A stretch of DNA of 64,000 nucleotides from the NCBI RefSeq assembly GCF_028009165.1, contig NC_079246.1, positions 2,418,001 to 2,482,000 of the forward strand, given 5' to 3'. Positions 3,294 to 26,900 of this stretch are shown here, in pieces (position 1 is the stretch's first letter; every line of letters starts with the position of its first letter). This DNA is from Akanthomyces muscarius. Its lineage: Eukaryota; Ascomycota; Sordariomycetes; Hypocreales; Cordycipitaceae. A program made the position numbers and the translations under genes. The notes under the pieces are model-generated. The model was not told the origin of the DNA, did not search any database, and worked only from the letters and a program-made list of their open reading frames with translations.

Positions 3294-3466
3294 CTAATCG
3301 TCATTCTCATCTTCGTCATCCTCGTCATCTTCGCCATCCTCGTCATCGTCATCTTCATCGTCCTCATGTACTTGCAGGGGATTGCGGCTGTCTGTGCCCT
3401 GGCCCAAGATCCAAAACTCGCACTCGCTGAACTGGCCAGCTGCGGCACCAAATATCCTTTGATAGT
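3294..3466 (-). CDS. Probable true C-terminus of the F-box protein in the alternative frame
   Basis: This frame is open from 3503 to 3294. It contains an ordered-looking segment (DYQRIFGAAAGQFSE, CEFWILGQGTD) followed by about 25 residues that are almost all Asp and Glu. It joins the F-box frame if one base is removed from, or two are added to, the 12-base homopolymer at 3467-3478. An acidic tail of this kind is frequent in fungal F-box proteins, so I read it as the real end. A slipped assembly and a genuine mutation cannot be told apart here. Confidence 0.55.
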
Positions 3467-5199
3467 CCCCCCCCCCCCGCCATGGTATCGCGTTCAGCGC
3501 CACGCGGCTCTCGAAGTATCATCAAAGCACACGTCTTATCCCTGAACACATCCAGGGCTGCTTTCCACGTGTCAGTAAGCAGGTGGACCTGTGTCAGATG
3601 GATGCTCTTCATCGGCTGCGGCAGCTGTTTCAAGTCTGAAAGATTCACAGCGACACAGCTGAGCGTCATGTCCATCAGGTGAGGTCTGGGCCGGGCACAC
3701 AGAACTTTTCCCAGGTCGACGCTTTCCCCTGGCGGCCTCGGGGAACCCATGTCTAGTTTGAGCTTCTGGAGGCTGGCCGTCTCCAAGCAAGCAGAGAGAA
3801 AATCATGAAGACCCCCCGCCTCTGGCGCGTCCGCCGACATGCCAGCTTTGAATGAAAAGGCTGTCAACCGCCGCGTGGCAGATGACAGCTCTCGCCAAGC
3901 GTCTGGGGCTGCTGCCATGCCACCTGGGCTTCCCAGAGTCCGTAGGTTAATATCGAGACTGTCGAGGACTGTGCCGGTTTTTCCGACCGCCCTGATGAGC
4001 TGGATGGTGCATTCGAAGTTGGACAACCCTAGTCTGTATTGTTCCGCATCAGTGTCTGCGGCTACTTGGAGCATGGACCGACAGATCAGAGTCCTCATGC
4101 CGGCTCCAGATATCATGCGATGCCTCTCCGTAACAGGATTATGGTCTGCAACGTCCAGCTTCCACACGCTCGTCAGCCTTGCAGCTGCAGAGCCAAAGAG
4201 TCGGACGAACTCTCCAGTGTCGATCAGTGATGCCTGATTTTTCAAGAGAGCTCGATACTTTCGATGCGCCTGGTCTAGGCTCGCACGGCAATTCTCATTG
4301 TCTAGGGCAGGGACGTCGTCGTCGCTTTCCGTATCTGCTGACGCATGCCCGCGTATCTTGGACAAGACCGCCGCTACGTCTACTGATATCTGTGTCTCTG
4401 TCTCCTCGGGGATTTGTGTTATATCCCACAACTGATCGTGACTGTCGGTTTCGTCTTGAGCTTCTGTGTGGAGGTGAGAGAAGAATGTGCCAAGGTCGCC
4501 GAGTGCGGACGTCTCGAAATGAAGGCCAACTCGGAAGGCTCGAACGCCCCTAGAAATGGTGGGATGGCGAGAGACCGCGCGCAGGCGCGCAAGGGATGCC
4601 TCGTTGGGGCTGATGCGCACGCGGCGGACCAGCAGCTGGGAGCCCAGTTCGCAGAAGCGCCGACAGACTAAGCGCACGTTTTGAATGTCCCTTCTGCCCC
4701 CAGACATGCCGTAGCTAACAGGCAAATCCGGATCAAAGCCTTCAACCAGTTCGAGGATGCCGACGAGAGTCTCTTCAGGCAAGTTCATGATGCTGAGGCT
4801 TCTCAAAAACGGACGTGACAATGCGTTGACGGCGCGCCAAACAGCGTCCCGATGTGCCACCAATGCCGCCCCCTGGATTTCGACGTGCTCAATCTCACGT
4901 TGCAAGTTTTCCGCAGAGTTGAGGAGACCTCTACCGCCCGCGCGTTTCCACCATTCCGACTCAAGCGGTGGTTGGTCCCCGAACCCTTTGCGCTGGTACC
5001 ACGCGCGCCAATAAGTTGATCCAGCTTGGCCGGGTCCGTTGTGTTCAGCGGGAAACAACAACGTCTTGACGGTCATCAGGCAATTTAGCTCGCGCAGCAG
5101 GCTGCGAGTCTCCGCGTCGACAATTCTGAGTTCATCGTGCGCTTTTTTTAGGCGGTCGCCGTCGTCGGCAGCGGACGCAGAGGGGCCGGGCGAGGCCAT
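3364..5199 (-). CDS. F-box protein of unknown target, probable C-terminal frameshift
   Basis: Likely SCF ubiquitin-ligase substrate adaptor. The ORF opens at 5199 (MASPGPSASAADDGD); an upstream in-frame Met at 5391 is less likely because the residues in between look untranslated. Residues 15-50 and 85-115 are predicted helical. An F-box-like segment follows at about 125-175 (IMNLPEETLVGILELVEGF, then VRLVCRRFCELGSQLL). The rest alternates charged and Leu-rich segments like degenerate LRRs. The annotated frame ends at 3364 after a run of 12 C at 3467-3478 (G on the coding strand). Beyond the run it becomes basic and low in complexity, whereas the +1 frame reads on through DYQRIFGAAAG and CEFWILGQG into an acidic Asp/Glu tail ending at 3294. 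The true protein probably ends there. No introns needed. Target unknown. Confidence 0.75.
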   Translation of the reverse strand: MASPGPSASAADDGDRLKKAHDELRIVDAETRSLLRELNCLMTVKTLLFPAEHNGPGQAGSTYWRAWYQRKGFGDQPPLESEWWKRAGGRGLLNSAENLQREIEHVEIQGAALVAHRDAVWRAVNALSRPFLRSLSIMNLPEETLVGILELVEGFDPDLPVSYGMSGGRRDIQNVRLVCRRFCELGSQLLVRRVRISPNEASLARLRAVSRHPTISRGVRAFRVGLHFETSALGDLGTFFSHLHTEAQDETDSHDQLWDITQIPEETETQISVDVAAVLSKIRGHASADTESDDDVPALDNENCRASLDQAHRKYRALLKNQASLIDTGEFVRLFGSAAARLTSVWKLDVADHNPVTERHRMISGAGMRTLICRSMLQVAADTDAEQYRLGLSNFECTIQLIRAVGKTGTVLDSLDINLRTLGSPGGMAAAPDAWRELSSATRRLTAFSFKAGMSADAPEAGGLHDFLSACLETASLQKLKLDMGSPRPPGESVDLGKVLCARPRPHLMDMTLSCVAVNLSDLKQLPQPMKSIHLTQVHLLTDTWKAALDVFRDKTCALMILREPRGAERDTMAGGGGLSKDIWCRSWPVQRVRVLDLGPGHRQPQSPAST

Positions 5200-5723: not shown

Positions 5724-6844
5724 CTACCTAAGATGGGGGTGATTCGGATGCTTATACACAACTGCGTCGCTGGGCTTGGCCGGCACTCGGATGCCATGCG
5801 CCGTTTCATTGGCGTACGCGACAATCGAATCCCAGCTGCGGCACTTGTGCTCGACCTCAAAATCCGGCCAGGGAATGTCTCGATTCTCGACCCAAAAGGA
5901 CATGTACACGCCGACGTCGCCAGCGCACATGATGGCCTCGCGAAGGTAGTCTATGCAATGGTCTAATTTGGAAACTAGTCTTCAGCTCATGCGTGCAGCG
6001 AACAGGTAATAGGGATAGGTGGGTAGCTTACCGACGTGCTTGCGGAGCGTGGCGGGTGAGTCACGGAAAGCGAATGGCATAGGATCTCGCTTGCGGTAGT
6101 AGTCCTCGTAGGTGAACTTGCGAATGAGATTCAGGCAGTGCAACTGTGCGAAGACATTTGCGGTTAGCGCACTGGCTCTCATGGATATAGCATATTGCTG
6201 ATTACGAGGCACACCTGATGGAAGACCTCCATGCTGCCAAGGAACTCTTGTCCGTTGGTGCCGTCTAGCGCAGCATATGTTTCGTTTTTTCCCAGCGTCT
6301 CGACCAAATCCATTTTAGAGACCGAGACATAGCCAGCTATTGTACCATTGACGCGTTAGCAACAAACCCGAATCTTTGCGTATCATGGCTCTCAGCGCTC
6401 GCGGAAGATTGATATCTTACCGAGATCTAGGTCTTCCCACCTAGAGTCGATCTCGTCGGTAGGGTATCCTTTGTAAGGAGACTTGGCTGTGAATCCTTGA
6501 AATGTAACAATTTCATAGCTGATATGCGGCAAAGCCGGTGCTGACATACATTTTGTCAGCGGGAATGTGAGAAAACGGTTGTGCGACGAGAGCTTACAGA
6601 AAGACGAGAGCAACTGTGTGCAAGTTTGCTCTGAGCATGTGGATCTGACCACAAAGAAGAAAAAGACGAGAATGTTGCCAAATAACAGTGTTGCATTGGT
6701 GAGGAGGAGGTATCGGGAGTGTTTCGGATGTGTGTGCAGCGGTACAGAGCTAGGAACCTCGGTGTCGTCGCTGCTCCAGGTCTCGTCCGCGGTGTTGCGC
6801 AGAAGCGAAATGCCATGTTCTTTGTCGTCGCTCGACTTGCCCAT
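5724..6844 (-). CDS. UstYa/DUF3328 family oxidase 1 of the RiPP-like cluster
   Basis: UstYa-family proteins are membrane-anchored oxidases that act on Kex2-released core peptides in dikaritin RiPP pathways (ustiloxin, asperipin, phomopsin). Exons (minus) 6598-6844, 6421-6540, 6215-6336, 6032-6143 and 5724-5962 give 279 residues. The short N-terminal cytosolic part is followed by one membrane segment at about residues 44-66 (LLLTNATLLFGNILVFFFFV). Both diagnostic HxxHC motifs are present: HQLHC, split by intron 3, and HVDHC, split by intron 4 in phase 1. Between them is a Tyr/Arg-rich loop. After the second motif comes a conserved CAGDVGVYMSFW segment and a C-terminal HKCRSWDSI block. Intron 1 (57 bases) is a multiple of three with no stop, so retention would keep the frame. 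It is co-oriented with the precursor-like gene 0.5 kb upstream. Exact reaction unknown. Confidence 0.88.
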
Positions 6845-7355
6845 TACGAGAGTTTCCTTGGTAGAATTGAATGAATCTCATGCAATCCGGGGCGATTGAA
6901 TAATTTGCACTGCGGGATAAAGGAACTTAGGTCGCGGGATGCAGTGTACGTGTTGATGAGAGAGGGTGACGCTGCTGTGGGGATACAGTCGAGGCTGGAC
7001 AATAGCCTTTAGAATCGCAAGTGAGTTTACATAATCACTGAACAGCTGGTTCCGAGCTCGAATTCAAAGTCCATGGTCGGTCTGAAAAGCACACCCCTCT
7101 AGTGTAATTTACAAGTGTTGCAGCGCGTTCGAGGAGAGGTCAATTAGCCCGCCGCACACAACAGCGCCAAAACTCGAGGATGTTCCTAAGTAGTAAAATT
7201 CTCAAAGTACCAGTTCACGATCAACAGAGTTTATAGTTTGTCTATAGATATAGGTCTATGATTGATAAGCTCGGTGTTGACCTAGCTGCTCCCGGCATCG
7301 TGACTTGGATGATCTCCCAGTCTTGCAAGCGGTTGCTACACTGCCAAGGTCTATT
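6845..7355. other. Intergenic between UstYa 1 and the precursor-like gene
   Basis: Promoter of UstYa 1 and 3' flank of the small peptide gene. AT-rich near 7215-7265. No ORF supported. Confidence 0.5.
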
Positions 7356-7553
7356 CTAGTCGTAGTACTCGGACATCTTGCGCTTCTCGTCGACATCCTG
7401 CGCAAATTTAGCTGCAAATCTCCGGCCTAGACGCTTTTTTCTTTACGCAGCATTTTTCTATCAACTTACATTGAGAGCACGGTCAGCATGGTCAGCGGGC
7501 AAAGCCATGGCAAGGCCAACGGCGGCGAGAACGATTGCGAATGAAAATTTCAT
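7356..7553 (-). CDS. Candidate single-core RiPP precursor peptide
   Basis: Two exons, 7470-7553 and 7356-7397, joined in phase 0 across a 72-base intron (GTAAGT donor, GCGCAG acceptor), encode 41 residues. Residues 1-17 (MKFSFAIVLAAVGLAMA) form a textbook signal peptide with likely cleavage after AMA. A short acidic pro-segment (LPADHADRALNDVDE) ends in Lys-Arg, the Kex2 site. Only KMSEYYD follows before TAG. This is the minimal architecture of a dikaritin-type precursor: secretion signal, Kex2 site, and a short Tyr-containing core with an acidic end. Known members (UstA, AprA, PhomA) usually repeat the core several times; here there is one copy. It lies between UstYa genes and has its own TATA box (7652-7660). 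The UstYa context is the main functional argument. It could instead be a small secreted peptide or the remnant of a longer precursor. Confidence 0.65.
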
Positions 7554-7645
7554 CTTGATGTTTGTTCGAGGATATATCTTTTACGACAAGTTTAAGAGAT
7601 TGCTTTTCTGGAGAGTTGTCAATGACCAAGGAGTATGTCTGGGCG

Positions 7646-7665
7646 GGATGCTTTTATATGCATCC
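7646..7665 (-). promoter_or_regulatory. TATA box inside an inverted repeat, upstream of the precursor
   Basis: On the minus strand a TATA element (ATATAAAAG) lies about 100 bases upstream of the precursor ATG. It sits exactly between the arms of a short inverted repeat, GGATGC (7646-7651) and GCATCC (7660-7665). Position and orientation suit a core promoter; function is inferred. Confidence 0.5.
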
Positions 7666-8870
7666 GGACACAGTGCGAGGCTCTACAGCCTTCCTCGACG
7701 TCTACATTAGATAGAAGGAGATTCCGACTCATTCGAGACCTATTCTACTTGTTTGTGATGCGGGGTAGCCTTGTCGGAATCGGCTGGGTGACGATAGCGG
7801 GTTGACCATTGAACATGAGGAGCCATGCCGAGAAGAGCCACACGCGGCGACAACCCCGTTGCCAACAATGTTTCACTGCCTACGAGATACAAATTCGTCA
7901 TCATCGTCAAATAAAAACAGAGAATTTACAAATACGAATAACAAAGGTAATTGTTCCCGACTGTCCACGTGGGCTTCTTCACGGCACCCTGCTTGCCGAC
8001 AATCCGTCTTCCTGTTCCCCCTGTCGTGTAGGAGATTGATGGTGTAGCACTACTACATGAGGCCCGTATGGCTTGCTTATGGTACGGGCCTCAGGCGCCT
8101 GCAGTGAGTGCGTTATTTACACTCCCCATGATGTGTAGCTGATGTCCGACAATGATGATATTCATTTGAGGTCCCCATTCTCAATTCAGGAGGCTATTTC
8201 TATCCAGTATCTTATCGAGCTCCAGTGCACTTGGTTATTCGCCGCCAAGAGAAGACAAAGCCGCTCCTATGTACTAGAGCCTGTTGACAGGCGATTTGGG
8301 TGCCATCACGGGGTAACATAAAAACACGCCGCTTGAGTAGAAGTAGTAGTTTGTTATACCTTTTATCTTTTATTGCTTTTATTACTGTCCTCTATTTTCT
8401 TGTTATTCTTATTCCTCTTCCTCTTCTTATTTTTCTTCCTCTTATTTACCCTATCCTCCCTATCTTCCCTATCTTCCCTATTTTCTTTTGATTTCTCTCT
8501 CTCTCTTTTTAATCTTTTTTTAATCTTTTTTTAACAATAACTGATATCCCCGCCACTGGCGTCTTTTTTCTTCTTCTTTTTTTTGGCACTCTGGCAATGC
8601 ATCGGGTGGCGTGCCGTGGTTCGCCACACCCGAGGCGAGTCAGCTCCAGCAGAATTCAACGCCACAGCTAACCTGGGTGAATTATTCGAGCGTTCTCTGT
8701 GCACCCATTCTAGGCTAATCTATTAGCTCTATGCTGTTTCGTAGACATTCGCTCTCCACATCTCGTACAGGCGCTGGTGCTGAATATGTCGCGCAGATAA
8801 GAGGGTATACATAGGTCGTCCACAACTAGTGGTCGGCCACGATTTTTGCGTGACAGAATATGCAGCCACA
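7666..8870. other. Long intergenic with pyrimidine-rich tract, UstYa 2 to precursor
   Basis: About 1.2 kb without a supportable gene. Positions 8340-8580 form a strongly asymmetric T/C-rich tract with tandem variants of TATCTTCCC and AATCTTTTTTT. A GC-richer part follows at 8585-8700. I find no further precursor-like ORF (signal peptide plus KR sites) here on either strand. Confidence 0.5.
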
Positions 8871-9867
8871 TTACTCGTCCGTCAGCCGGCTCAGCACCTT
8901 GGGGTCCCAATCTAGAAGGTTGCGCTCGACAGCCCAAAGCCTCATTTTTTCAAAGTTGCGACAAGTCTGCGTCGTTCGCATATTTATGCCCCATTTGCCC
9001 AAATGCTCGTTCCACCGCCAGAACGATGCGCCAATGTTCGCGTCGCACATGGTCGCCTGGCGGATACGGTCGACGCAGTGGTCTGATGCTCGCGCTATTA
9101 GCATGCAGCCAACTCGACTGAGGCCCCGGAATGCTATGTCGAGAGATACGTACCGTGATGAATGGAAATATTCTGGTTCCTTGTTCCGTTGGGGAAGAAG
9201 ACGCTGTAGTCTGGGAATCGCTCAGGATACAGAGACTTGCGCAGAGCATTCTAGAAAGCCGCAGTCAGATAATGACAGTGTTCGAGGTATTTTTTGCCAA
9301 CAGACAAGACAATGTAGCTGATGAAATACTTCCAAGGAAACGATCCCATCACCTTGAGTTCCAGGTGCGACCATGGTGCTATTGGGCAGTCTTTTTGCGC
9401 GCTTTGAATCAATCACCGTCGTGCTTGTATCTAACTCATGTTGGTAATTTGGCTCATGGTGAGGTACAGAATTACTTACTTCGGTACAGCTTGTCCCAGA
9501 TCTCATCTTTCACGTCATCAGGTGGTCCTTGAAATGGTGATAGCTCGTGAATATTGTCCAGGAAAACGACGGTTTCGTATTCTACCAAGTCCCACAGCGG
9601 TGCTGGAGACTCAATTAGCAAGAGGAGAGGGACGATGAGCGAACCCAACTTACTGTTTTGCGCGAACAGATCACATTTTGATGTTCGTGAATCGGATAAA
9701 AAGAAAAGGCAAAGTAGAGTGAGGATGGCCGCATATAAAACTGATAAGTGAATCTTGTGATAAAATGCTGGGTTTTGCTTCCAGAGTGTCTCGTTCAACT
9801 TTGGCTCCGACACTAACAGTGTGTGGCTTTCTTCGTCAGTCATATGAGTCTGGCCGTGGGAAATCAT
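8871..9867 (-). CDS. UstYa/DUF3328 family oxidase 2 of the RiPP-like cluster
   Basis: Second UstYa-type protein. Exons (minus) 9654-9867, 9480-9602, 9306-9430, 9154-9250 and 8871-9082 give 256 residues; an alternative in-frame start at 9843 (MTDEESHTLLV) gives 248. One membrane segment lies at about residues 40-58 (LSVLYAAILTLLCLFFL). The conserved N-terminal lumenal block is PLWDLVEYETVVFLDN. The first HxxHC motif (HQLHC) is intact at the end of exon 3. The second (HHDHC) is split by the phase-1 intron before exon 5, followed by VDRIRQATMC and a Trp-rich segment (ASFWRWNEHLGKWG). The final intron position is the same as in UstYa 1 and 3, showing common descent. It is divergent from UstYa 3, 273 bases apart. 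Likely a core-peptide tailoring oxidase; substrate not proven. Confidence 0.87.
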
Positions 9868-10140
9868 GTTACGTTTTAACAGATATTTTTGACTTGGGTA
9901 GCAGATCAGTTTGTGCGGGTATGGACTACCTTCATAGAGTATTACAAGTCAGTGTCCGGAGCTCGGAGAGGTGTGAAGAGCAGAGAAGGCTGTAAGCTGT
10001 TGCTGCTCACTGCGACCAATCGCTCTCAACCACGGTGCGTGGGTCGTTTCTTAATTCCGCACACCAAATTCGCCAAACACCATCTTTTGCATCAACTATT
10101 TCTTCAGTTTTCTGTGTCTACGCCTGTGCTCGGAAGATCA
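9868..10140. promoter_or_regulatory. Shared divergent promoter of UstYa 2 and UstYa 3
   Basis: A gap of 273 bases between divergent starts, short enough to hold a common control region. I see no clear TATA box in it. Co-regulation is inferred from the arrangement. Confidence 0.5.
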
Positions 10141-11183
10141 ATGTCATCAAAACACAAATACGCGCTGCTCGAGTCCGCAGCGGCAGTTCACCCTCACGAG
10201 GTCAACGCTCACTGGTGGCGCCGGCTTCGTTTAACAGCCTACCTCATTGTACCCATCATCACTAGCATTGGAAGCTTTCTGCTTGGTGTTCATATCTCAG
10301 AGTCCCGATCAGTATGCACTGAAGGGGCTGCTTGCTGGTGTAAGTCGCCGTGAGATTCTCTACATAGGTACGCAACTAACAAGTCGACAGCTGCTGAGCT
10401 GGCGGCGATGGAAAGGCGGCCTGTACAATTTTCTGGCGCCTTTAATTTCACGAATCGATATCGCGCGCCACCCAGCGATGTACTAGATGAGGAATGGAAT
10501 CGATTTACGCACCATGGTGAGTCGTTGAGAACCACTCGGCTTCGCAGATCACTGATTCCAGGCGCAACAACAGCGTTAATCGACGGCACCGCTTCGTTAA
10601 TAGCAGTCACCGCGAATGATATTATGAAAGCGAATCTAACTGCGGACAGCAGACTCTTCGACAGCACAGTAGAGTACGGGCAGGTGAACGGCGGTGGCCA
10701 TATGGCAACGTTGGAGATGTTCCACCAGCTGCACTGTTTGGTAAGTTGCATTGCCTCTTTGCGTAGAGAAAAAATATCACCCACACTAACAATAGCAGAA
10801 TATGCTGCGAAAGGCCGTTCATAGTGATTACTATGAGAAGATAGGTCAAGCGGGCTCTCGCTCAGACAAAATGGCCACGCATCTTGGTATGGTGCCTCCA
10901 GTCATCACAGTCCATGGATCGCGTGCTCCTGATGAACTAACATTGCCCAGACCACTGCATCGAAATCTTGCGCCAGGTCATCACCTGCTATGGCGACACT
11001 GGTTTAATTACCTACCACTGGGTACAGGGAAATCCAGTACCTTATCCAGACTTTAGCACATGGCACCAGTGTCGGGATCCTGAAGAGATGCTGGCCTGGG
11101 CAAAGGAGCGCGAGGCCCCAATCCAGGTCAAAGTTGATAAAGCATTCTTTCCGAACGTCTTCGAGCTGGAGGAAGCCCCATAG
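10141..11183 (+). CDS. UstYa/DUF3328 family oxidase 3 of the RiPP-like cluster
   Basis: Third UstYa-type protein. Exons 10141-10339, 10391-10516, 10562-10740, 10799-10886 and 10951-11183 give 274 residues with all phases closing. The N-terminus is cytosolic and contains HPHEVNAHWWRRL. One membrane segment follows at about residues 30-50 (YLIVPIITSIGSFLLGVHI). Exon 2 carries the conserved PPSDVLDEEWNRF block. Exon 3 ends with HMATLEMFHQLHCL, the first HxxHC motif. The second, HLDHC, is split by the last intron in phase 1, as in the two paralogues, and is followed by IEILRQVITC and YHWVQGNPVPYPDFSTW. Likely acts with UstYa 1 and 2 on a secreted core peptide. UstYa proteins often work as pairs, so three may mean successive or heteromeric steps; this is inference. 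Confidence 0.88.
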
Positions 11184-12272
11184 TGGCGTAGGTAATACTG
11201 CACAGGTAGTCTGTTAGCCACATCATTCTGAAGAAGCTTCATTCGCTCGCGGCCACTCTTTGCCCATTTGTCTCGGGATTTGGGTGCCGCGCAACGGCGC
11301 CACCTCCGCTTCGGACCGGGCCGGTCACACACCGTCACATGGGGCGAGATGCTATCGCGACTTTGCGCGAGTCCTCGTGTCCCCCACAACAGTCTTGCAG
11401 GGAACCGTAACCCCTGCAGCCTGGTTTTCAACGCGAGTTATCGGACCCTTCTCTTCGGAATGGAAGCCACAATGGTCGAGAACAGGGTCGATCCACTGCC
11501 CTACAGGAAAATCGACTGGGGCAGTGACATACTCCGCCGACGGACCGGTGTCGTGAATTGGAGGCGTTGCAATCAGGCCAGGCGACCAGGAAGGCGCTGG
11601 AGCTGAAATGTCTCTTTCTGGAAGGTCAGCATTTTGTTAAACATCGCGTGATTTTTCCGCACAGTGCGAGGTTCAAAAGTCCCAGTGGCAGCTTTCCATT
11701 GCTCCAGGCGCTCAACACGAAGCCGATGTGCTGCGCGAACAAGCCGAGATTACGCCCGCGCAGCCAGCTTCACACACCGAAAAAAAAAAAGCATCCAACC
11801 CGGCAGGGCTATCGCATAGCTAGGTGCTATTCTCCCACATGCCATTAACCCTGTTATCTCATAACGGTCTGAGCTAGTCGTTGCTTCCGCTTGATCGCTT
11901 GGAGCAGCAGTGCTGAGCACCAGTCCACTCACATTGGTGCCTGGTAATCTACTCTCACAGCTCACCAACCATTTCGGAGCTCTACAAATGTGCTGAGATA
12001 CCATATCAAGCATCTGCACGTTAAATCTTCGTACTGCATTATATCTCGGGGTTAGTCAGAAAACATGGAGAACGAACTCGCGCACGAAAACGTGGAGTTC
12101 GACTACCAACGGCAAGGACATTCATAATCATTAGTTCAAAAATGAATTCGAGGCTGATGTATGATACAGAGTCCCTCCATGGCTTGCAGTGGTAATAAAG
12201 GCTGCCCAGCAAGGGCGAATACAAACATACCTCGTCATTCTTTCCTGCTTTGGCACGAGCTTCCAGTTCCTC
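11184..12272. other. Intergenic, 5' flank of the ABC transporter
   Basis: About 1.1 kb with only short, low-quality ORFs. The missing 5' exon or exons of the transporter may lie here. I could not find a first exon that splices in phase with the open frame beginning after the in-frame stop at 12162. An acceptor-like TTGCAG ends at 12189. Confidence 0.45.
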
Positions 12273-15200
12273 ATGGGTCAAACCAAGCACAAAATCCAGA
12301 AGACTAACAGCCGAGTCCCTTATGAGCTGCTGAACAATGTGTTGAGAGTTGCAAGCTGCGTCTCACTTTATCTGACACCACTGGCGCTGGAGAAGTTTTC
12401 GTCCACTGTTGTTGCTTTGGCGTACATCTCAATCTTGGGAATTGCGAAGATGCAGTCTAACTCGGCCAATGCCAGTCACTTGCTCCAACAGACGGTGCTA
12501 CTCTCCATGACAACACTCGCTCTCATGTTTGCAACCCACTTCTTGCCGCTTCTCGTCATAGGCAGCACCGCCCAGCCCAGCACTAGAGCGCTTGCTAGCA
12601 CTGTCTTGTTGTTTCTGTCTATTTTCGTCACCTCCATTACACCCAGGGACTGGATAGTACCCGTTGGCGCTTCAGAAGCAACCAAAAAAGGACCGTCTCA
12701 AGAAGAGACTGCCAGCTGGTTGGATTACTGGTGCACATTTGGACGCCTGACTCCTCTCATCGCCAGGGGCTGGGATGGACAAATTACATCGAAGGATCTT
12801 GCTTCTCTACCATGGGACTACCAACCCAGTGTACTTCTTCAAAGAATCAGACAGCTCCGACATAAGCACCACTCAACGGCAAGGACGTTGTTCGCTTTTC
12901 TCTGGTTCGACCTCTCAATCGCTGCAGTCTCAGCATCGATGTTTTTCGTCACGGAGCTCATCAAGCCCCTAGGCATGTATTATCTTCTCGATTATCTTGG
13001 CAATCCTGCAGATGCTGTATTTCAGCCATATATCTGGCTCTTTGTCATCATGGTTGGTAAGCTGTTTGGTACCATTGTGCAGCAGCAGCTGGCCTTCCAC
13101 TCTGGCCGGGCTTCTCTCAAACTCCAAATTGCCTTGACAGGTGAGATTTACAGTCACACGATGCAGTCTCGGCAGCTAGACCACGATTTTCTGAGCAGCT
13201 CAGGCTTGAAAGACGCCAAGCGTTCCTCAACAGGTCTCCTCACCAACCTCATGTCGACTGACATCAAGACCATCATGCAAGGCAGAATTCTCATCATGGT
13301 CATATTTGGTGGGCCTGTAGGTGGGATCATCGGTCTTGTTAGCCTGTATAAAATTATCGGCTGGCCATGTCTTGTTGGACTGGCGATTACTCTGCTTGGC
13401 ACACCAATCACTGCTTGGATTTCCAACTATGCATCGGATGCGGAAGAAAAAGCCAAAGACTCCCAAGATACTCGAGTATCGCTTTCAACAGAATATTTCC
13501 GATCTATAAAAATTGTTAAATATTTTGGATGGGAAGATGTAGTCGCAGAGCAGATGGAAAAGTCTCGAGATGAGGAGCAGAGCCATCTTTGGAACGTGGC
13601 GCTCTTCTCTACTGCCTCGACAGATGTAGCCTACATGATTCCATCGCTTGCACTCGTTGTCGTTTTCGCGCTCTATGCTGGCGTCCAAGGCAACCCCATG
13701 ACAGCATCTGTGGCCTTCATCACCATTGATCTGATGGAAATCGTCCGCGACAATACGACCGTCGTCTCTGTGGTAGGGAGAATGGTTCCAAAACTTCGAC
13801 TTTCCATGAAGCGCATCGACCGCTACATTGCTGCCGCTTCGCCAAAGCACACATTCCCCGAGGGCAGGTTGATCGTTAAAAACGCGACATTTCAGCGCAC
13901 GGCTTCTGCCGACTTTAGACTGCGTGATATTTCAGTCGACTTTGTGCACGCCGGGCTGAATGTCGTGGTTGGGCCTAGCGGCAGTGGCAAGACGTCGCTT
14001 CTGCTCTCGATTCTGGGCGAAACTGTGTTGGAAGATGGAAAGGTCACCAAGCCACGGGACGTAGCGTTTGCATCCCAGAGCCCGTGGCTACAGGCAAGAT
14101 CTTTACGCGATAACATTCTCTTCACGTCTACCTACAACGCCACCAAATATCGCCAGGTCATCAAAGCGTGCTGCCTCGATGTCGATCTGGAAGAGCTGAC
14201 AGGAGGAGATGAGACAAACATTGGCGAGAATGGACAGCTTCTTTCTGGTGTGTATAAACTATTTCATACTTTCTTCGTCGCTTCATTTGTCTTCTTGGTT
14301 ATTCTAATCCTTGGCAGGGGGGCAAAGAGCCAGAGTTTCGCTAGCTAGGGCCTTGCTCAGCGACGCACCGCTGCTTCTCCTGGACGACATCTTTTCTGCG
14401 CTTGATAGCACCACTGCAATCTCTCTATGGAACAATGTATTTTGCAGCTCGCTTCTAAAAGGCAGAACTATCGTTCTTGTAACGCAGCTTCCTTGGATCG
14501 CGGCAGAAGGCGATTGCGTCGTGACTATGGAGAACGGTCGCGCGACGACGGAGAAAAGGACTGTCACACGGAGTCCCAATTCCGTGACAGGTGCTGCAAA
14601 CCGAGAGGCTGCAAAACATCTTGCACAGACAGAGACAAGCATGGAAAAAACTGGCTCGGCCCCGGAGGATGAATGTGACGAAGAAGTGGCAACTTTACAG
14701 GCGCGTCACCCAGGGCGTTTTCAGTGTAAGTCATATCATGCTGTCTCTTTCGAGTTTACTAACCATGTCAGGGATGGAATACATTGGCTATTTTGGTAAC
14801 TTGTTTACCATTGCACTTACAATGTCCACCTTGGTCATTTTTATTCTCACCGGCATGGCTACTGATCTCTGGCTCACGTCGTGGGTCGACATTGAGGACA
14901 CCCAGTCAAACCCGCACACGGCTTACCACCTGGGAATTTACATTTTTCTCTCATTATTCACAACTTTCAGTGAGGGAATCACAAACCTAGCTTTTATGCG
15001 TGGAAGTTGGGTCTCAGCTCGCAAGCTCCATTCGTTGTTTGTTCATGCTGTTCTGAATACTTCCATCGGTTGGCTGGAGAAGACGTCCATCGGTGGCATC
15101 ATGGGCCGCCTCTCATCTGACCTCGACTCTCTGGATCAAAACACCTCGGAGCCTTTGAGGGAGTTTCTTGACGAAGCTTTTAAAGCCATCATGATGCTTG

Positions 15201-16637
15201 GCGCCATCACAGGTATTTTGCCGCTCATTGCCGCGCCGGCCATTGTACTATCGATGGTCGGCGCCCTTGTTGGGGAGGTGTATAGCCGCGCTATCAAGAT
15301 GGTCAAGAATATCGCATCGTCTACGCAGGCACCCGTCATCTCGAGACTCTCTGAGACCATTGACGGTATGGCTGTGATTCGCGCACGCAGCGACAATGTC
15401 CAGTTCGCTTTTGATGAGACTATTTTTGGGTTGCTTCACAACTCGGCACGGGCCGCAGCCGCGCAGAGGGACTGTGACCAATGGCTTAAGTTCCGCATGT
15501 CCCTTCTTTCGGCACTCATTAATGTCGTTGCTGGCATTCTGGCCCTGCGGGCGAGTGGACATATTTCAGCAGGTCTTGTCGGATTCTCGCTCGCCCAGGC
15601 GTCGTCTCTCAGCAACGGGCTTCTGCGACTCGTGTTCAAGCTGAACGAGCTAAATCTGTCCATGCAGTCTGTATGACAACACATCTTTTGATTCATGATG
15701 TTGCGCGTGCTAACATTCCCTGCTAGTTCCAGCGTGTCAAGGAGTATTGTCATCTCCCACCGGAGGAGGAGCCAGGCTCCAGAAAAACGGGAACTCTTAG
15801 TCTCAGTCCGTCCTGGCCACAGTCGTCTCAGGTTGAATTCCGGAACGTCACTGTTCGCTATTCCCCAGATGGCGCTGACGTTCTAAAGAAAGTCAGCTTC
15901 TCCTTTGATGCTGGCGAGCGAAACGCCATTGTCGGCCGCACAGGCAGTGGTAAATCTACCGTATGTACCACTCTACACACTCGACTGCCCGTCTTCAACT
16001 CAAAACCCTACAGGTGATTTTGTCTATCCTCGGCTTCACACACATTGTCGCGGGTAAGATTCTCTACGACGGAGTAGACATTGCCACCGTGCCTCGCAGG
16101 AGACTTAGACAAGCCATTGGCATGGTCCCGCAAGACGCGCTGCTCTTCCAAGGCACCGTCCGTATGAACCTCGATCCATCTAACACCATCCCTGACTCTG
16201 ATCTCAACGAATTTCTCTCCATGTGTGCATCGCTCAACGCCATGAAGAGCCAAGCCGAAAACGATTCCTTGCAAAGTGATTTGATGCTAGACACACCGGT
16301 CAGCCCAGGCGGAAACAATTTCTCGCACGGGCAAAGACAGGTGCTCTCGCTATGCCGAGCAATGGTGCGCAAGAATAAACTCACGTTGCTGGACGAAGCG
16401 ACGTCGAGCGTGGACATGGGCACGGATAGCGCCATCCAGGGTATTCTCCGCGCCCAGCTGAGCGGTGGGCAGCATGGCTTGATTACGGTCGCCCATAGAC
16501 TCAAGACGGTGTTAGACTATGACAAGGTTGTGGTTATGGGCTTTGGCAAGGTGCTGGAGATGGGAAGCCCGACGGAGCTCCTGGATTCCAAGTGCAAGTT
16601 TTATGACATGATGGAGCATAGTGGTGGCGCCGAGTAG
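12273..16637 (+). CDS. ABCC (MRP-type) multidrug ABC transporter, 5' end uncertain
   Basis: Full ABC exporter of the MRP/ABCC type, probably for export or self-protection against the cluster product. Exons 12273-14247, 14318-14725, 14772-15670, 15727-15960 and 16014-16637 give 1379 residues from the first in-frame ATG. The frame is open upstream to a stop at 12162, so a 5' exon carrying more of the N-terminal TMD0 may be missing. In order: partial TMD0, linker, TMD1, NBD1 with Walker A GPSGSGKTSLL (about residue 566), signature LSGGQRARVSLARA interrupted by intron 1, Walker B LLLLDDIFSALD, acidic linker, TMD2, NBD2 with Walker A GRTGSGKST (about 1164), signature FSHGQRQ and Walker B LTLLDEATSS. 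The NBD1 Asp in place of Glu after Walker B is the usual ABCC asymmetry. Co-oriented with UstYa 3. Confidence 0.85.
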
Positions 16638-17094: not shown

Positions 17095-18498
17095 CTACTG
17101 GATCTTGCGCTTCATCACGTCAGGCAGCGTATCCAGCCTCTTCGAAAACCTCCGAACGGCCTGCAGCACCACCCACAGCAGCGTAAACTTTGCCGCCTCC
17201 CACCCGTCGCCCCATCCGCTCCTCACACAGCTGACCAGCCCCAGCCGTGGCCTCTCGCGCTTCCCGTCCAGCTCGTCCTCCCACCGTTCGCACGCCGCGC
17301 GGAACTGTCTCGGGTCGTCCGTGATGACGGCGTCCAGCACCCGCGCCGAGGACACCACGTCCTTGCCGCCCTGGTGGTCCCGGACCAGGTTTCGGTCCAG
17401 CAGCCACCACATCCAGTTATCCTGGTTGACGGTCCACGTCATGACGGGCGCGGCGGGGACCATGGGGTGAGCACCACGCGCATGCCGCAGGAAGCGCCGG
17501 CCCAGCAGGCCGGATAGGGTGGAAAAGTGCAGGCTGAAGCCGAGGTTGGGAATGGCGGTGCCAAAATGCTGCGAGTAGGAGCGTGACCAGGAAATGTGCG
17601 AGAGGGGAAACGTGGGAAGGAGACGCCGTGCTGTGGTAATGTATGTGGCCTGTGTTTTCAGGTTAGTTCGGCCTCGTAGATTAAAACACAAAACGGCAAG
17701 TTCTTGATACGCAAAGGTGGTATACGTACGTTCCAGCAGCCGAGGAGGATACGCTCCTCCCATGGTACAGGACCTTTGACCGAGTCCAAGACTTGCCTCA
17801 TGCTGGATAGAAGCTGATCCGCATCGTCGTCAATCTACAAGATTAGCTTCGGTGCTCTAGAAAAACCAAGGGGGAGGGTTGTATCTGATATACCTTGATA
17901 TCGAGCACGCACCACGTCTTCTGCATGCCGTCCTCTGCTAGCAGTCCCAAGACGTCACTCAACCGCGGCATCCCAACATGTGGCGACCTCAAGCTCCTCA
18001 GAGTCGAAATATACTCCCAGTCACAGTCGGCAATCTTCTTTGCTACGCCATAGCAGCGTTTCAAAGTGGCGTCCTGTTTTCCCGCTCCATCGGTCAGCGA
18101 AACAGCTTATATAAAGAATACGGGATAAGCAATCACATGTGACATGACGACAACGCCGTCCCGGGTTAGGTGCACGTCCGTCTCAATACCGTGCGCGCCG
18201 GCCTGCACCGCCGCGCGCATGCCCTCGAGGCTGTTCTCCGGCCACTGCGCCTTGTACCCCCGGTGAGCGACCGTCTGCGGGAGGAGACGGGCCGGGTCTC
18301 TGGCGGAGGGGATGGCGGCCGCGAACGGCGCTGTCAATTTAAATCAGCGACATTCTCTTGTCTTTTCTTCTTTCTCTCTAGACTCTACACATCTCCAACT
18401 CGTTGAGATGGGCACCGCGGGGTTTGGCAAAGAGCCGAGGTTAGGATGGGAGGAGACGTACCGTCCGGAAGGTCATCAAATAATGAGGCGGGATCCAT
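17095..18498 (-). CDS. Glycerophosphodiester phosphodiesterase family protein (Pgc1-like)
   Basis: GDPD-fold phospholipase. The yeast relative Pgc1 degrades phosphatidylglycerol at mitochondria and lipid droplets. Exons (minus) 18462-18498, 18137-18330, 17894-18073, 17730-17834 and 17095-17649 give 356 residues. The catalytic and metal-binding motifs are in order: [12 protein letters not shown] (near residue 35), [12 protein letters not shown], and the His of VVMSHD, which spans intron 2. WCVLDIK matches the conserved strand before the next metal ligand. Two C-terminal stretches (WWLLDRNLV and [13 protein letters not shown]) could associate with membrane, as in Pgc1. The start ([12 protein letters not shown]) lies in a 37-base first exon. 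It converges on the ABC transporter. Substrate choice (PG or glycerophosphodiesters) is not settled by sequence. Confidence 0.85.
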
Positions 18499-21056: not shown

Positions 21057-23908
21057 TCAAATCAGGTAGCCATCAAGCGTGTCCATATTGAATGATTCGC
21101 CGCCAGCAGCTTGCATCTGCTTTTGATAGCTCCCTCCCATCTGGCCCATGGCAGGTGGCGACACTTCCTCGCCGGAGCTCAAGCTCTCATCACTCATGCT
21201 CAGCACGCTCTGTGGCGCATCCGAGGCGGTAAAATCGCCAAGGCTGAAGCTGCTGAGGTCCCACGAGTCGGGCGACCAGTCGCTCGTCTTGCTTGCAAGC
21301 GCAGGTTCGTTCACCAGCGTTGCGCCTCCATAAATCGCATTGTATACGTTATCCATGCCGCCTTCCATCGAACCCAGCAGAGCCTCCCACTCATTGTTAC
21401 TGACGCCCGCAACTTTGTTCGAAAACTGAGTGTTGCTCATCATGTTTGCCAGATGAACTTGGGCCTGGCGGTCAAGTGGCAGCTGCTGCTTGGAGCCCGG
21501 TGAGTGCGATCGAGATCCATTGGGTGTCGTGTTGAGAGAGAGGTAGTCGAGATTCGGTCGCGTCGCTAGGAGAGGGTTTGCGTGCTGGCTCGCGGTCGGC
21601 ATCTGCGACATGCACAGGTAGCTTTCTGGCCGAGCAAAATCTTCGGACTGCACACTCTCAAATGACCCACGGCTGCGCGCCATTTCCAATTCAGAGTCGG
21701 GCGAAATTAATGCCGGCATCGTCATCCGCCTCGACTTGTCTTGAGTGCTCACGTGCTGCGGTTGGAGTTGGTGCCTTTGTTTCTTCTCATTTCCACTCAC
21801 TCGCCTCCTTGGCTGCTCCGCTACAGGTGACTTGGAAGTTGAGCTGCGGCGCGGACTGGAAGACGAAGCTGGCGATGGCAATGATGATCCCTCTACCGTT
21901 ACGAGCGTGCTGGCGATTCTTCGCAGATCAACACAGCCGGGTGACCGCAGACGCTCAACGGTGCTAATCACAGAGTTAACCAGTCGCTGGTTGTCCCGGG
22001 CCACCTTACTCTCCGTTTTGAGATCCACAACCTGGAATAGTAAAGTCAAGGCGCTGATAGTAAGCACGTCGCCCTTATTGAGGCAGAAAGAGAACGAAAG
22101 ACTGCGTTCTTCAAGAAGCTCGGAGATCTGAATGATATGCTTGCCAGATTCCGCAATGGACATAAGTGCCGAGGCTGACTTGTTGCCTAGACCGGAACCG
22201 ATAGCAGGCCGGTAGATGAGGGTGCGGATAAAGTAGTATGCGAGGGCCTGTGCGTGTCAGTTGGGTAGAACAGTCTGCCGGAGGTTCTTCGTTGCTTACC
22301 AAAAGAGGAGATCGGCTTCCAGTGACATCTGTGGATGGTTTGTCTTGGGCAAACCTGAGTTTCAGGTGCGCCGGTAGCGCGTCATACCAACTATCCAGTT
22401 CGTTCTCCAGTGTATTCATTTGTTGCAGTGAGAGATCATAGGTGGTGGCAGACGGATAGTTTTTCTCGAGAACCTTGGCCAGGATGCGGGTTGCGCGGAA
22501 CAGGGCCAGTGCACTGGACAGACGCGTATGCTCGCCCGGAAGAGTAGGCTGAAAACCCTTTTCCGTTACGTATTCATCGTCCGTGTCAGAGGGATATTCC
22601 ACCTGCAAGTCATCTTCACGCAGCAGTTTGGGAAGCCCCAAGGTAGCGGCGGAGAAGCTATGGTGATGTTAGTGGCAATGTACAAACAAGGGATGCATGG
22701 GTGGTGACGCCTACCAATCCACAGTATATAGTGTCCAGAAGACCTTCTTTCTTGTTTCAAGTGTCAGCGCACCGAAAGAAAATCGCTTTTGGCTCTGGTG
22801 GAGGCCAAGGCGATAGGCTAAGCCGACCGCGATAGACTTGTAATGTTGCAGGCGTCTATAGTCGGCAGTAAGGGAGCAGTAGAGCAGTGCGAGTACGAGG
22901 CACTGAAGAGCACTCATGGTATTCTCCAATAGAATCGCCTCAAGGGCGCCGGCCCATTGTCGCTCACATGCTGCCAGCTGATCCAGGTCAGGAGCCGAAG
23001 AAGAAAGCCCAGCGAGGCTGAAAACGAGGTACAGCTGGGCAATCTTGTAATTGCACTTGACCTTTTCGGGGTCGGCGACAAACTCCTCATAGATGCGCAA
23101 AAATGTAGGCTTGTGAAGAGCGGGGAACAAGGCCGCCCATTCTTGAAAGTATACATTGACGCATCTGTCGGTAAAAAGACGAGGTGGCACTCTGAGAGCA
23201 GCCTCGGGTGGGTTGGGCGTGAGTGGTGGGCAGCCTTGCACATGCAGGAAAGCCTCGGGATTGAATTCGCTACAAGGCTTCCCACTCTCTTGCAGCTTAC
23301 GCTTCAGGGCCGCTATCGGGCAGGAAAAAGAACGAGTCAGCAAATATGATGTAGGCAACAGGAAAAAGGCGTGGCACGTAGAATTTGACCATGTCAGCAA
23401 ATGGTAACTTACTAATGAAGGTGCGGCCGCTGGATGCGCCCATAAAGTAGGCATCGGAGTTCTCCACGCCGAGTAGTAACGGTGACGCTTGAACGCGGAA
23501 TGTGTCCTCCTTGTCAGAAATTGTATCTTTTGAGCCATCGCTGTTTGTGCTCGTGTCATGGAGGGCCGATGACGCCCCAGACGTAGAAAGACGGCGGCCC
23601 TTGTGCATGGCGGATAACATGTCAATCTTTTCGTCCTTCTCGTCCAGTAAATCCTTCAGCTCGCGAACTTCGGTTTCCAAGGCACGCACGCGCTCCTCGA
23701 GAGATTCCGTATAGCCTCGAGGGAAAGCGCGCCGTGACAATTTGTCGCTAGTGCGACATTCAAAGCCGACGTTAGCACATTGCGAGCAAGTAGGGCGGAC
23801 GCCGTCACAGCGAATCTTTTTACTGCGGCAGCGATCGCAAGCCTGTGCAATGCGGCTCTGGGCGCTGGTGCCGACTTTGATAACCTTCATAGGCAGAATG
23901 CCAGGCAT
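21057..23908 (-). CDS. facB: FacB/Acu-15/Cat8-type acetate regulator, Zn2Cys6
   Basis: Transcription factor that activates acetate utilisation, glyoxylate-cycle and gluconeogenic genes. Exons (minus) 23413-23908, 22715-23312, 22300-22657 and 21057-22247 give 880 residues, near the length of Aspergillus FacB. The Zn2Cys6 cluster at about residues 24-51 reads [28 protein letters not shown]. It is followed by the family-specific linker [20 protein letters not shown] and a leucine-zipper-like coiled coil ([20 protein letters not shown]). The middle fungal-trans domain carries [21 protein letters not shown] and [12 protein letters not shown]. The C-terminal third is Ser/Pro-rich and acidic ([12 protein letters not shown]), a likely activation domain. 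An alternative start at 23890 (MKVIKVG) is possible. A long gene-poor region upstream suggests extended regulation, as expected for a carbon-source-controlled regulator. Confidence 0.92.
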
Positions 23909-26900
23909 TGTGGGCGATTTCGCGCAACGGTCGGCGTTTTTTGGTAGAGGATTCTGGCGCTGACTCGCCCGGTTCGAGAGGTGTTTTTTTCGCTAGTACT
24001 CGGTTCGCAAAATTTCAGACGGTTCCCAGTCTCCTGGTGCAGCACCACGGCGAGAAATAATTCATGCGTACTCGTCTCGTGTGTGCCGTACTTTTGCAGG
24101 CTCGTTTTGTTCTTTTTTTTGGTCGAGGGTGAATTGGCTGCCGTGAGCGGGAAAGGCGAAGCGTGCAAGGGGATTGTGGCGGTTGACTAAGAATCTCCTT
24201 GTCGTGCGGCTCGGGTAAGCGGAAGTAACGATATAGTACAGCGGCGCGTCCAACTGAAAAGGCGACGACAGCGATAACCCGACGCAGGACAACACCACAC
24301 AAATTCAGATCTGAGAACAGAAGAGGATTTCAAGAATATGATAGAGTAAAAAAGGCGATTTTACGAATAATGGCGGAGAGTAATAATGGAAGGGGAAGAA
24401 CTGGTAGAAGAGCGGTACCCCAGCAAAGTAAAGAAAGATTGGGTCGTATGTGCGGGTCTGGACAGGTCTAATACGGAGAACTGGTAATGAGAACCCCGTA
24501 CTGGTGCTCCGTATGTACAACGACGGTAGATGTGGCAGGAGTCAGGACATGGTGTCGGAACCCACTGGCACGGCTGTGCAAGCCTGGGGATCAAGTCGTC
24601 CCGAAGAGCCACGAAGGAAGACCCGACTCTGTCTGCCGACCCCGGGATCTCCTATGGGTCTCAAGCGTCCCAACAGCATAGGGACAAGCGGCGGGCCTAG
24701 TCGCATGGCCAGAAACCAACGCAGCCTGTGGTGGAGCGTCGTTAGCGCCACCGCAAGACGTGTTAGACGTGCTGCGACATGCGAGTCTGTTGTCTGCCAA
24801 CGGCTAGCTGTATTTGCAAGCTCCCCGGCTGGCTTCTTGGCTCCTTGCAGTGGCCTTGTGGCCCTGCTGGTTCCGACTGGCATCCAGAGCCCGTTCCCAC
24901 TTCGTTTTAGCGACCGTGTGAGCGTCGAGTGGTGCCCTTGCCAGGTGCTTGGCGGGCCACCGGGCGCAGACCCATCGCCACTATTGCCATGGATGCTAGC
25001 TAGTTGGAAGAAGCCAGCCATTCAGCAGTTTCGCAAATCCAAACTAGCGGCGCACAAATCGTCCCAAAACTGGAATTCCGGGGGTGGGCCGTGACCTGTC
25101 TTTTTTTGCTTTTGTCCCAAGCGAAAAGTGGGTGGCGTGCCTTGGGTGCCTTTGGTCTGGCGCGAGAGTCCCAATTTCTCTGGCTAGTTTGGCATTTTGC
25201 ACCATTTCCCACACCAAACTGCGGCGAGCACCTGTCTAGAATCGTGATGGTGATGTAATGTGTTGATCCTGGCTGCAACCTCTTGGTCTTCTCCGCGCCA
25301 AACCCGTCGTGATGGGTGCTTCGCTGGCTGCCCCGAATCCTTCAATCTCGACCGCATATGTGCTGCCTGGACAAGCCGTAGCATCATCAACTCTTGGCTA
25401 GGCTCGTCGCAGAACGTCATTGTTTCCGACTATTCATCCCAGCCTAATATAACTCCGTGTCGTGTGCCATTCCCAGCCATCGTCAAGGGCGGCTTTGGCC
25501 TCTTCCGACGCCATTCCCAGCTAGCCAGTTGTCTGCATTTGTTTCGAGTCCTGCTTCCCGGAGTTCAATCACACCGTCGCCTCTGGATCCTCTTCGTCAC
25601 CTTTGGCTTCAGCAGCCATCATACGATGTTCCGATTTTGACTCCCAACACACACTAGCTATCCCTAGTGTCTTGCCAGAAAACGCCTCTGGCCTGAAGCT
25701 GACGGTGCAAAGCTGCGGCGTTACTGCTACTCCACTCGAGCCGCGGCTCGCCAGTGCGCCTTTGCTGTTCTAGATGTCCACTGCACCTCGGCGATGTTAG
25801 ATGTATGACCAGCATCACGCTGTCAGACTGCGATCTTAAACCGGAAGTAAAGCGAATAGGAAAGCGTGGTTCAGCTGGCGGCGGTACGTGTTGGCGATCG
25901 TTCCATACTTTCCGGGCAAGACTCAATGCTTTGCATCGCAGGCAGTCGTCCAACAGAGCTCAAAGCTTGCATTCCTGTTTTGATCGTATTCTAATCCCCG
26001 AAATTGGTCCATTTTCGAGCTGTATAAGTCCGACGTAGCCCTCAAGCTTGGTAAGAAGACCCCGGCGCTCGGTCAGCACCAAGTGTGGTGGGGCATTCTA
26101 ATCGACTTCCATCGTGCATCACATCGTTTGCCCGTAACCAGATTACCCCGCCTTGCTGGCCGACTCTTCGTAGTTGCTCGAATACTTAGGGTCGTATTGA
26201 ACGTCAAAGCGGCAAGATTGCGATGTACAGAGTGGGATAGCACAGTTCGTACTAATGAAGTGTTTAGAGGTCGCGCCGGGCTGTTGCGTCTCTTGCAGTG
26301 CCGTCCCCTTCCCGATGATATGTTGGATGAATGAAGGCTGGTTCTGCTCGTTCCTTCGTCCGGTGGCGAAACCCAAGTCCTTCTACATATAGCAAAATGG
26401 CAAGCAAACCCGCCAGTGTACATGCTTCTTTTGCTCGCGACCTCCAGAGAACTTCAGTTTCATCGTCGTAGCTGGTCGCAAGGCTGGTCTCCATCCCACA
26501 TCCCTAGGTTGTGGCGTAGACTTGTCGCAGGCTACAGGTATTAGCGAATTTAGCGTTAATGACGGGAAGGCTTGCATACCACTTCCAGCAGCTCAGCCTG
26601 TCTGCAGGCCAGTTATGAATCATTCTGCACTTCCAATAGCCGCATGCACGAGTCGTAGGTCTAGCGTCGTCGATTTTCTTTTCGTCGCAAGGCATTCGCT
26701 GCGTTTGCATTTGCCGGCCCTGCGTTGTTGAAACCCGGTGTTCACCCCCGGCTAGCTTGGAGCTCTGGCCTTGGGCATTAACGCCGGGCATGTATGTCTC
26801 AGGCGAATTCGCTGATAGGGCTTGGGAGGAAACTGTGGCCGAGTTCAAATTCGCAGCGCATGAAGCCTGTTCAAGTGGTTGGGGATGAGCCTTGTATCGC

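Follow-up and report, generated by a model that had tools for sequence, protein, structure and literature searches.

A 64 000-nucleotide stretch of the Akanthomyces muscarius genome (contig NC_079246.1; C6:2418001-2482000, hereafter the window, in a genome of 36.2 Mb and 12 contigs) probably carries a minimal UstYa-type cluster for a ribosomally synthesized and post-translationally modified peptide (RiPP), in which a single tail, KMSEYYD, is cut from a small precursor by Kex2 and cross-linked by three UstYa/DUF3328 proteins, here called U1, U2 and U3. The cluster is arranged as U1 (minus strand), the small precursor gene (minus), U2 (minus), U3 (plus) and a gene for an ATP-binding cassette (ABC) transporter (plus), and spans exactly positions 5724-16637 of the window (Table 1). 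The gene models predict that it would work like a dikaritin cluster, as a variant with a single core and three oxidases. We give somewhat less than an even chance to the further proposition that this is a natural dikaritin-like pathway built on a single non-repeated core, with three binuclear copper enzymes for one tail of adjacent tyrosines.

A first-pass annotation of the window had proposed a RiPP cluster of the dikaritin type. The RiPP part of that proposal is well supported because nine UstYa loci of the same genome carry tandem-repeat Kex2 precursors, one of which, at the locus L025, is the sole other match of the small gene. What the annotation did not flag is the main anomaly of the cluster, a single core as against the multi-copy precursors of the dikaritins.

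The predicted precursor and its proposed product

The two exons of the small gene read MKFSFAIVLAAVGLAMALPADHADRALN and DVDEKRKMSEYYD on the minus strand and are joined in the gene model. As the first-pass annotation had described, this is a tiny gene between two UstYa genes; the model encodes 41 amino acids with a putative signal peptide judged by hydropathy, one KR and the tail KMSEYYD, and fits a precursor with a signal peptide and a Kex2 site beside UstYa genes. Scanning all of the window for repeats gave no repeated cores and no leftover repeats, and on this basis we rejected a hidden repeat precursor in the window. Since there is one KR and one tail, and not several repeats separated by Kex2 sites, the small gene is not filed as a Kex2-processed repeat protein (KEP).

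A detector with set rules, which asked for a hydrophobic leader, KR and a tail of 4-15 residues and allowed an intron, found five such short genes in 306.5 kb, one of them a true repeat precursor. The window's small gene is the only one of the five with at least two tyrosines in its tail. When the U1-U2 interval was shuffled with dinucleotides preserved, any candidate arose in 5 of 1000 shuffles and a candidate with at least two tyrosines in 1 of 1000; the limits of the detector were set after the candidate had been seen, so these figures flatter the small gene somewhat. Single-core precursors were also sought at the 12 further UstYa loci that have no repeats, and none with at least two Tyr or Trp residues in its tail was found (13 regions, 130 kb).

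In the pathway that we propose, the signal peptide would direct the 41-residue precursor into the secretory pathway, and Kex2 would cut it once, after KR in the late Golgi, to give the seven-residue tail KMSEYYD. U1-U3 would be anchored by their N-terminal helix with the catalytic part in the lumen, where, with O2 and a two-copper centre, they would cross-link tyrosines or carry out related oxidations, up to three enzymes acting on the Tyr-rich tail. The product would then exit by secretion or be moved by the ABC protein. We infer secretion, one Kex2 cut, oxidative cross-linking and release because the topology would place the UstYa domain in one lumen with Kex2 and the signal peptide.

Repeat precursors at UstYa loci of the same genome

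A genome search with PF11807 gave at least 48 matches, which were grouped into 22 UstYa loci, and 10-kb stretches were taken around the 21 loci other than the window. Tandem-repeat Kex2 precursors are present at 9 of the 22 loci (L010, L011, L016, L017, L021, L022, L024, L025 and L030), each holding between 2 and 9 exact copies of the searched core string, and no precursor was detected at 12. The cores include GDILYNNQAGWG, NPDILYFMPVGWG, EELEPYGAYGNV, IEYTHPAGGVTD and SDADAATAYVVD; the repeat unit contains Tyr in eight of the nine precursors and Trp in the ninth. A core copy lies directly at the stop codon in six, as it does in the small gene, and in the remaining three KR is followed by a short terminal spacer. 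Leader structure was read for seven of the nine, and in two of these (L010 and L021) a short intron separates the signal-peptide exon from the core exon, as in the window. Additionally, a TATA-like box is found within 300 nt upstream of the small gene and of three of the five repeat precursors examined; U1, U2, U3 and the ABC gene all lack one there.

Two side observations concern these loci. L011 and L030, which are on different contigs, have the core start SDADAATAY in common. The spliced model of a UstYa-family match at L012 (4614-5393, plus strand) has both HxxHC motifs incomplete, and the metal site of this protein may be lost or altered.

Resemblance of the window genes to L025 and L024

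When compared with the whole genome, the 41-residue protein matched its own two exons and one other sequence, the leader of the L025 precursor (219 amino acids, C5:2940595), which lies between a minus-strand and a plus-strand UstYa gene. By itself the match is weak, but its place makes it appear striking. The best match of U1 at another locus is, by E-value, the minus-strand UstYa gene of L025 (41%, 1e-27), while by summed bits the UstYa gene of L017 is slightly ahead. U2 is best matched by the plus-strand UstYa gene of L024 (C5:2846984). A tree was built from 28 of the 31 modelled UstYa genes, leaving out three short ones; in it, U2 falls in a group of five with L014, L018 and the plus-strand genes of L024 and L025 (support 93/94), and U3 groups with L016, L017 and four others (support 89/81).

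L025 and L024 thus share several features with the window: the precursor lies between two UstYa genes, its leader starts MKFS or MKSF, and the minus- and plus-strand UstYa genes resemble U1 and U2, respectively. They differ from it in having 9 and 2 copies, respectively, of a core ending GWG-KR, in having no leader intron, in carrying the U2 equivalent on the opposite strand and in having no ABC piece in either region.

By the L025 cluster there is also an open frame (L025:7320-8045, minus strand) with two HxxHC motifs (HVTHC and HTSHC) that lies outside the PF11807 search matches and is possibly a divergent third UstYa-type enzyme. A short frame about 10 kb from the L025 precursor (L031:157-327, plus strand) ends SKR-GAGYNVAVPLGWGD-stop; we considered it as an L025-like GWG core but, as a single frame, took it as probably due to chance.

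The UstYa proteins

The first-pass annotation's three UstYa/DUF3328 genes, each with both HxxHC motifs, are borne out: U1-U3 score 134-187 bits against PF11807, and in all three predicted splice forms the domain, both motifs and a membrane-anchor-like segment are found together. They also have four C-terminal cysteines in the same register. The motifs are complete only once introns have been removed: a phase-1 intron interrupts the second motif in U1, U2 and U3, and another intron interrupts the first motif of U1. Because introns run through the motifs, the choice of splice sites decides whether they are intact. Spliced alignment reproduced the three models, with those same proteins as the queries.

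DUF3328 proteins are binuclear copper enzymes (PMC12435403). In CctR, the cyclochlorotine hydroxylase, the HxxHC(x)nHxxHC arrangement forms a binuclear copper site, and the protein has a membrane helix and its C-terminus in the organelle lumen (PMC12435403). U1-U3 are like CctR in this motif arrangement, in the membrane anchor and in the C-terminal cysteines; the substrate of CctR, in contrast, is a non-ribosomal peptide (PMC12435403), and no such synthase was seen in the window frames examined. For P0122, a protein 47% identical to U1, there is an AlphaFold2 model (mean pLDDT, the model's confidence score, 78). In this model the two HxxHC motifs sit on different long helices (residues 163-178 and 197-217). 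A PDB sequence search with U1 gave no match at an E-value of 1 or better, and the P0122 model gave no PDB fold match at 0.001 or better. Another DUF3328 protein, AprY, is the asperipin cyclase. AprY has been reported to be dependent on copper and O2 (PMC12435403).

Comparison with known dikaritins

A review of 2022 counted five dikaritins, with multi-copy precursors. Where a dikaritin is defined by a Kex2-processed repeat protein (PMC10512285), the window lacks the repeated cores; where the UstYa-type enzyme defines the class (the 2021 definition, as reported in PMC12048977), that enzyme is present. A definition by five kinds of gene also exists (PMC12048977), and no tyrosinase, methyltransferase or peptidase was found by Pfam in the five genes of the cluster or in ten selected flanking reading frames. 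Functional dikaritin clusters lacking at least one of the five kinds are, however, known (PMC12048977).

A close parallel is asperipin-2a of Aspergillus flavus, which is made by four genes and for which no regulator is seen around the precursor gene (PMC10512285). The first-pass annotation had called the pathway minimal; the gene set is indeed small, but given asperipin-2a it is not unusual. Asperipin-2a also has a UstYa-type enzyme and, as predicted for the window, a Kex2-processed precursor, but it differs in having a repetitive precursor and a single UstYa gene (PMC7329392), as against one core and three UstYa genes in the window. The ustiloxin and phomopsin clusters share with the gene models of the window a precursor with a signal peptide and a Kex2 site, and contain two and five UstYa homologues, respectively (PMC7329392). 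They differ in having multi-copy precursors (16 repeats in ustiloxin) and a tyrosinase gene (PMC7329392, PMC10512285), and ustiloxin additionally has a regulator and 15 genes in all (PMC7329392, PMC10512285); neither a tyrosinase nor a regulator was found inside the window's cluster. Elsewhere, a 109-residue RiPP precursor of Trichoderma has been predicted with a single core, with no link to UstYa seen in the sections available (PMC7099791). In the open-access literature we found no description of a single-core precursor beside UstYa genes; subscription papers were outside this search.

If the single-core reading is true, UstYa processing can do without repeats, and genome mining that relies on repeats overlooks a class of fungal peptides. 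A higher repeat number brings more transcript and a greater yield in ustiloxin (PMC10512285), which is why the contrast with the nine repeat-bearing sister loci is valuable: a working single-core precursor beside them in one genome would be a natural test of why dikaritins keep costly, unstable repeats.

Relatives in other fungi

U2 has 138 relatives at an E-value of 0.001 or better, of which the best 120 were examined. Among the matches listed, the closest is LEL_08439 of Akanthomyces lecanii RCEF 1005 (93%), followed by PWT90_04944 of Aphanocladium album (59%), after which identity drops to 40%. U1 has 45 relatives, led by LEL_08438 of A. lecanii (92% over 53% of U1). In the LEL_08438 annotation the end of U1 is joined to the F-box neighbour, and this fusion, together with the order of the tags, indicates that the F-box gene, U1 and U2 are collinear in A. 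lecanii. The consecutive tags also suggest that there is no annotated gene between U1 and U2 in that fungus, and that the small gene, if present there, would have escaped annotation. Of the finding that the first-pass annotation named as refuting it, relatives with the UstYa genes but without the small peptide gene, one half is seen: A. lecanii has both U1 and U2, with the consecutive tags LEL_08438 and LEL_08439.

The ABC transporter

The ABC transporter reported by the first-pass annotation is present at its place. The protein has two stretches each of PF00005 (ABC_tran) and PF00664 (ABC_membrane) and the Walker A motif twice, and so has the two membrane and two nucleotide-binding domains of a full-size ABC exporter. 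Its paralogs in the genome are 38% and 37% identical over the first 659 residues. ABC pieces occur in 4 of the 22 UstYa regions (10 kb each) against about 0.55 expected (Poisson 0.0024); the expectation assumes 62 ABC genes, our own estimate from 72 matches, and one of the four regions (L016) has a 118-residue match only. This enrichment makes an exporter role plausible, and the ABC protein is a predicted exporter.

Alternative explanations

Several findings weigh against a UstYa-type RiPP cluster in the window. The small gene has no repeats, unlike the nine sister loci, and no database homologue in a protein search; a relaxed search of 13 UstYa regions (130 kb) found no other single-core gene; and five of the nine repeat precursors have no leader intron but start with a hydrophobic leader that reads straight through. 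The leader match to L025 is weak alone (E 0.27, 52%, residues 1-27). On the tree, the single row nearest to U2 is L014, from a locus that has no repeats, U1 has no firm place (by path it is closest to the L024 minus-strand gene), no fully supported branch contains any of U1-U3, and the repeat-locus label is only weakly clustered, with 41 of 500 shuffles as low. No 8-mer is common to three or four of the four cluster promoters. UstYa proteins also act in non-RiPP pathways (PMC12048977).

The relatives add to these points. None of the 45 U1 matches, which come from a word-limited search, is named Aphanocladium (some are unnamed), although U2 occurs in Aphanocladium album, and in the U2 record of that fungus the first motif reads HQLHY and not HQLHC, a difference that may be genuine. 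The public model of LEL_08439 (P0001) skips the first HxxHC and inserts residues into the second, and that of LEL_08438 (P0121) skips the second. These differences fall at intron positions of our U1 and U2 models, and the loss of the motifs in the public A. lecanii models is likely an error of splice annotation; we prefer our own splice models on the ground that both motifs are unchanged across 30 aligned relatives.

One alternative is that U1-U3 act on a small molecule or on a peptide made elsewhere, the 41-residue gene being a chance frame or an unrelated secreted protein. UstYa-family enzymes do work outside RiPP pathways, and the halogenase ApnU acts in a polyketide pathway. The lack of a database homologue of the precursor and the 12 of 22 UstYa loci without a detected precursor both fit a chance or unrelated gene. 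However, a comparable gene with at least two tyrosines arose in only one of the 1000 shuffles, the one further match of the small gene in the genome is a repeat precursor that has UstYa genes on both sides, and no non-ribosomal peptide synthetase or polyketide synthase was found by Pfam in the ten selected flanking frames or by eye in the listed frames of at least 200 residues; we regard this alternative as unlikely. Somewhat less likely still is that the small gene is the relic of a repeat precursor, its repeats having been lost by recombination and its one copy no longer being made into a product. The sister loci do differ in repeat number (2 to 9 exact copies), in six of the nine precursors, as in the small gene, the stop codon comes straight after a core copy, and ustiloxin yield is quadratic in repeat number (PMC10512285), so that one copy would give little. 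A relic is at odds, however, with the intact reading frame, splice sites and TATA box, with three UstYa genes that are intact in our models, with the retention of U1 and U2 at 92-93% in A. lecanii and with the absence of leftover repeats from the window scan.

We think it very improbable that the peptide leaves the cell without modification and acts as a signal, with the UstYa genes serving another purpose. In one survey, most Kex2 repeat proteins (6120 of 7878, or 78%), including almost all pheromones, do lack a DUF3328 gene among the 15 nearest genes (PMC7329392), but the small gene is directly flanked by UstYa genes and its tail is Tyr-rich, and Tyr is present in 65.6% of repeats near DUF3328 genes as against 38.2% elsewhere (PMC7329392). 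A different question is how far the cluster extends. The core pathway might consist of U1, the small gene and U2, perhaps with U3, the ABC transporter being an unrelated neighbour; we find this rather unlikely, though the least unlikely of the alternatives given here. The gap of about 1 kb between the U3 and ABC models, the paralogs of 38% and 37% elsewhere in the genome, the lack of a common promoter motif and the fact that no exporter would be needed for a product formed in the Golgi are all consistent with it, whereas the ABC pieces in 4 of the 22 UstYa regions, set against the estimated 0.55 and with L016 contributing its 118 residues, argue for a link.

Arrangement and surroundings of the cluster

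Coordinates of the predicted features are given in Table 1. U2 and U3 are divergent, with 273 bp between their starts.

Table 1. Predicted features of the cluster in window coordinates. PF11807 scores (cut-off 25 bits) are those of the spliced proteins; TM, transmembrane-like segment called by hydropathy; aa, amino acids
Feature	Position	Strand	Details
U1, UstYa/DUF3328, 279 aa	5724..6844	-	5 exons 6844-6598, 6540-6421, 6336-6215, 6143-6032, 5962-5724; HQLHC at residue 162, HVDHC at 199; single TM 48-66; PF11807 187 bits, E 6.4e-55
Predicted precursor gene, 41 aa	7356..7553	-	2 exons 7553-7470, 7397-7356
Predicted precursor intron, 72 nt	7469-7398	-	GTAAGT...GCGCAG
Predicted signal peptide, about residues 1-17	7503..7553	-	hydropathy rule only
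Single Kex2-type dibasic KR, residues 33-34	7380..7385	-	gene model
Predicted sole core KMSEYYD, residues 35-41	7359..7379	-	gene model; ends at stop codon
TATAAA	7653..7658	-	sequence; 105 nt upstream of precursor ATG
U2, UstYa/DUF3328, 256 aa	8871..9867	-	5 exons 9867-9654, 9602-9480, 9430-9306, 9250-9154, 9082-8871; HQLHC at residue 149, HHDHC at 185; TM 39-57; PF11807 134 bits, E 1e-38
U3, UstYa/DUF3328, 274 aa	10141..11183	+	5 exons 10141-10339, 10391-10516, 10562-10740, 10799-10886, 10951-11183; HQLHC at residue 163, HLDHC at 196; TM 35-53; PF11807 168 bits, E 3e-49
Full-size ABC transporter, 1379 aa in model	12273..16637	+	5 exons; start codon may lie further upstream

The cluster is bounded on one side by an F-box-like gene (3367-5199, minus strand), for which the Pfam match is below threshold, and on the other by a GDPD-family frame (18110-18343, minus strand). 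The first-pass annotation had seen no regulator, peptidase or methyltransferase of the known clusters. For the peptidase and the methyltransferase this holds in the five genes and ten flanking frames, but beyond the ABC gene there is a Zn2Cys6 regulator with domain matches at 22714-23992 (minus strand), and the gene may reach 21057. We take it to resemble acetate-type regulators such as FacB and Cat8, and reject it as a member of the cluster because unrelated genes, with GDPD-family and kinase-like frames, intervene. Finally, the window has a long pyrimidine-rich stretch of low complexity at 8340-8580, between the small gene and U2.

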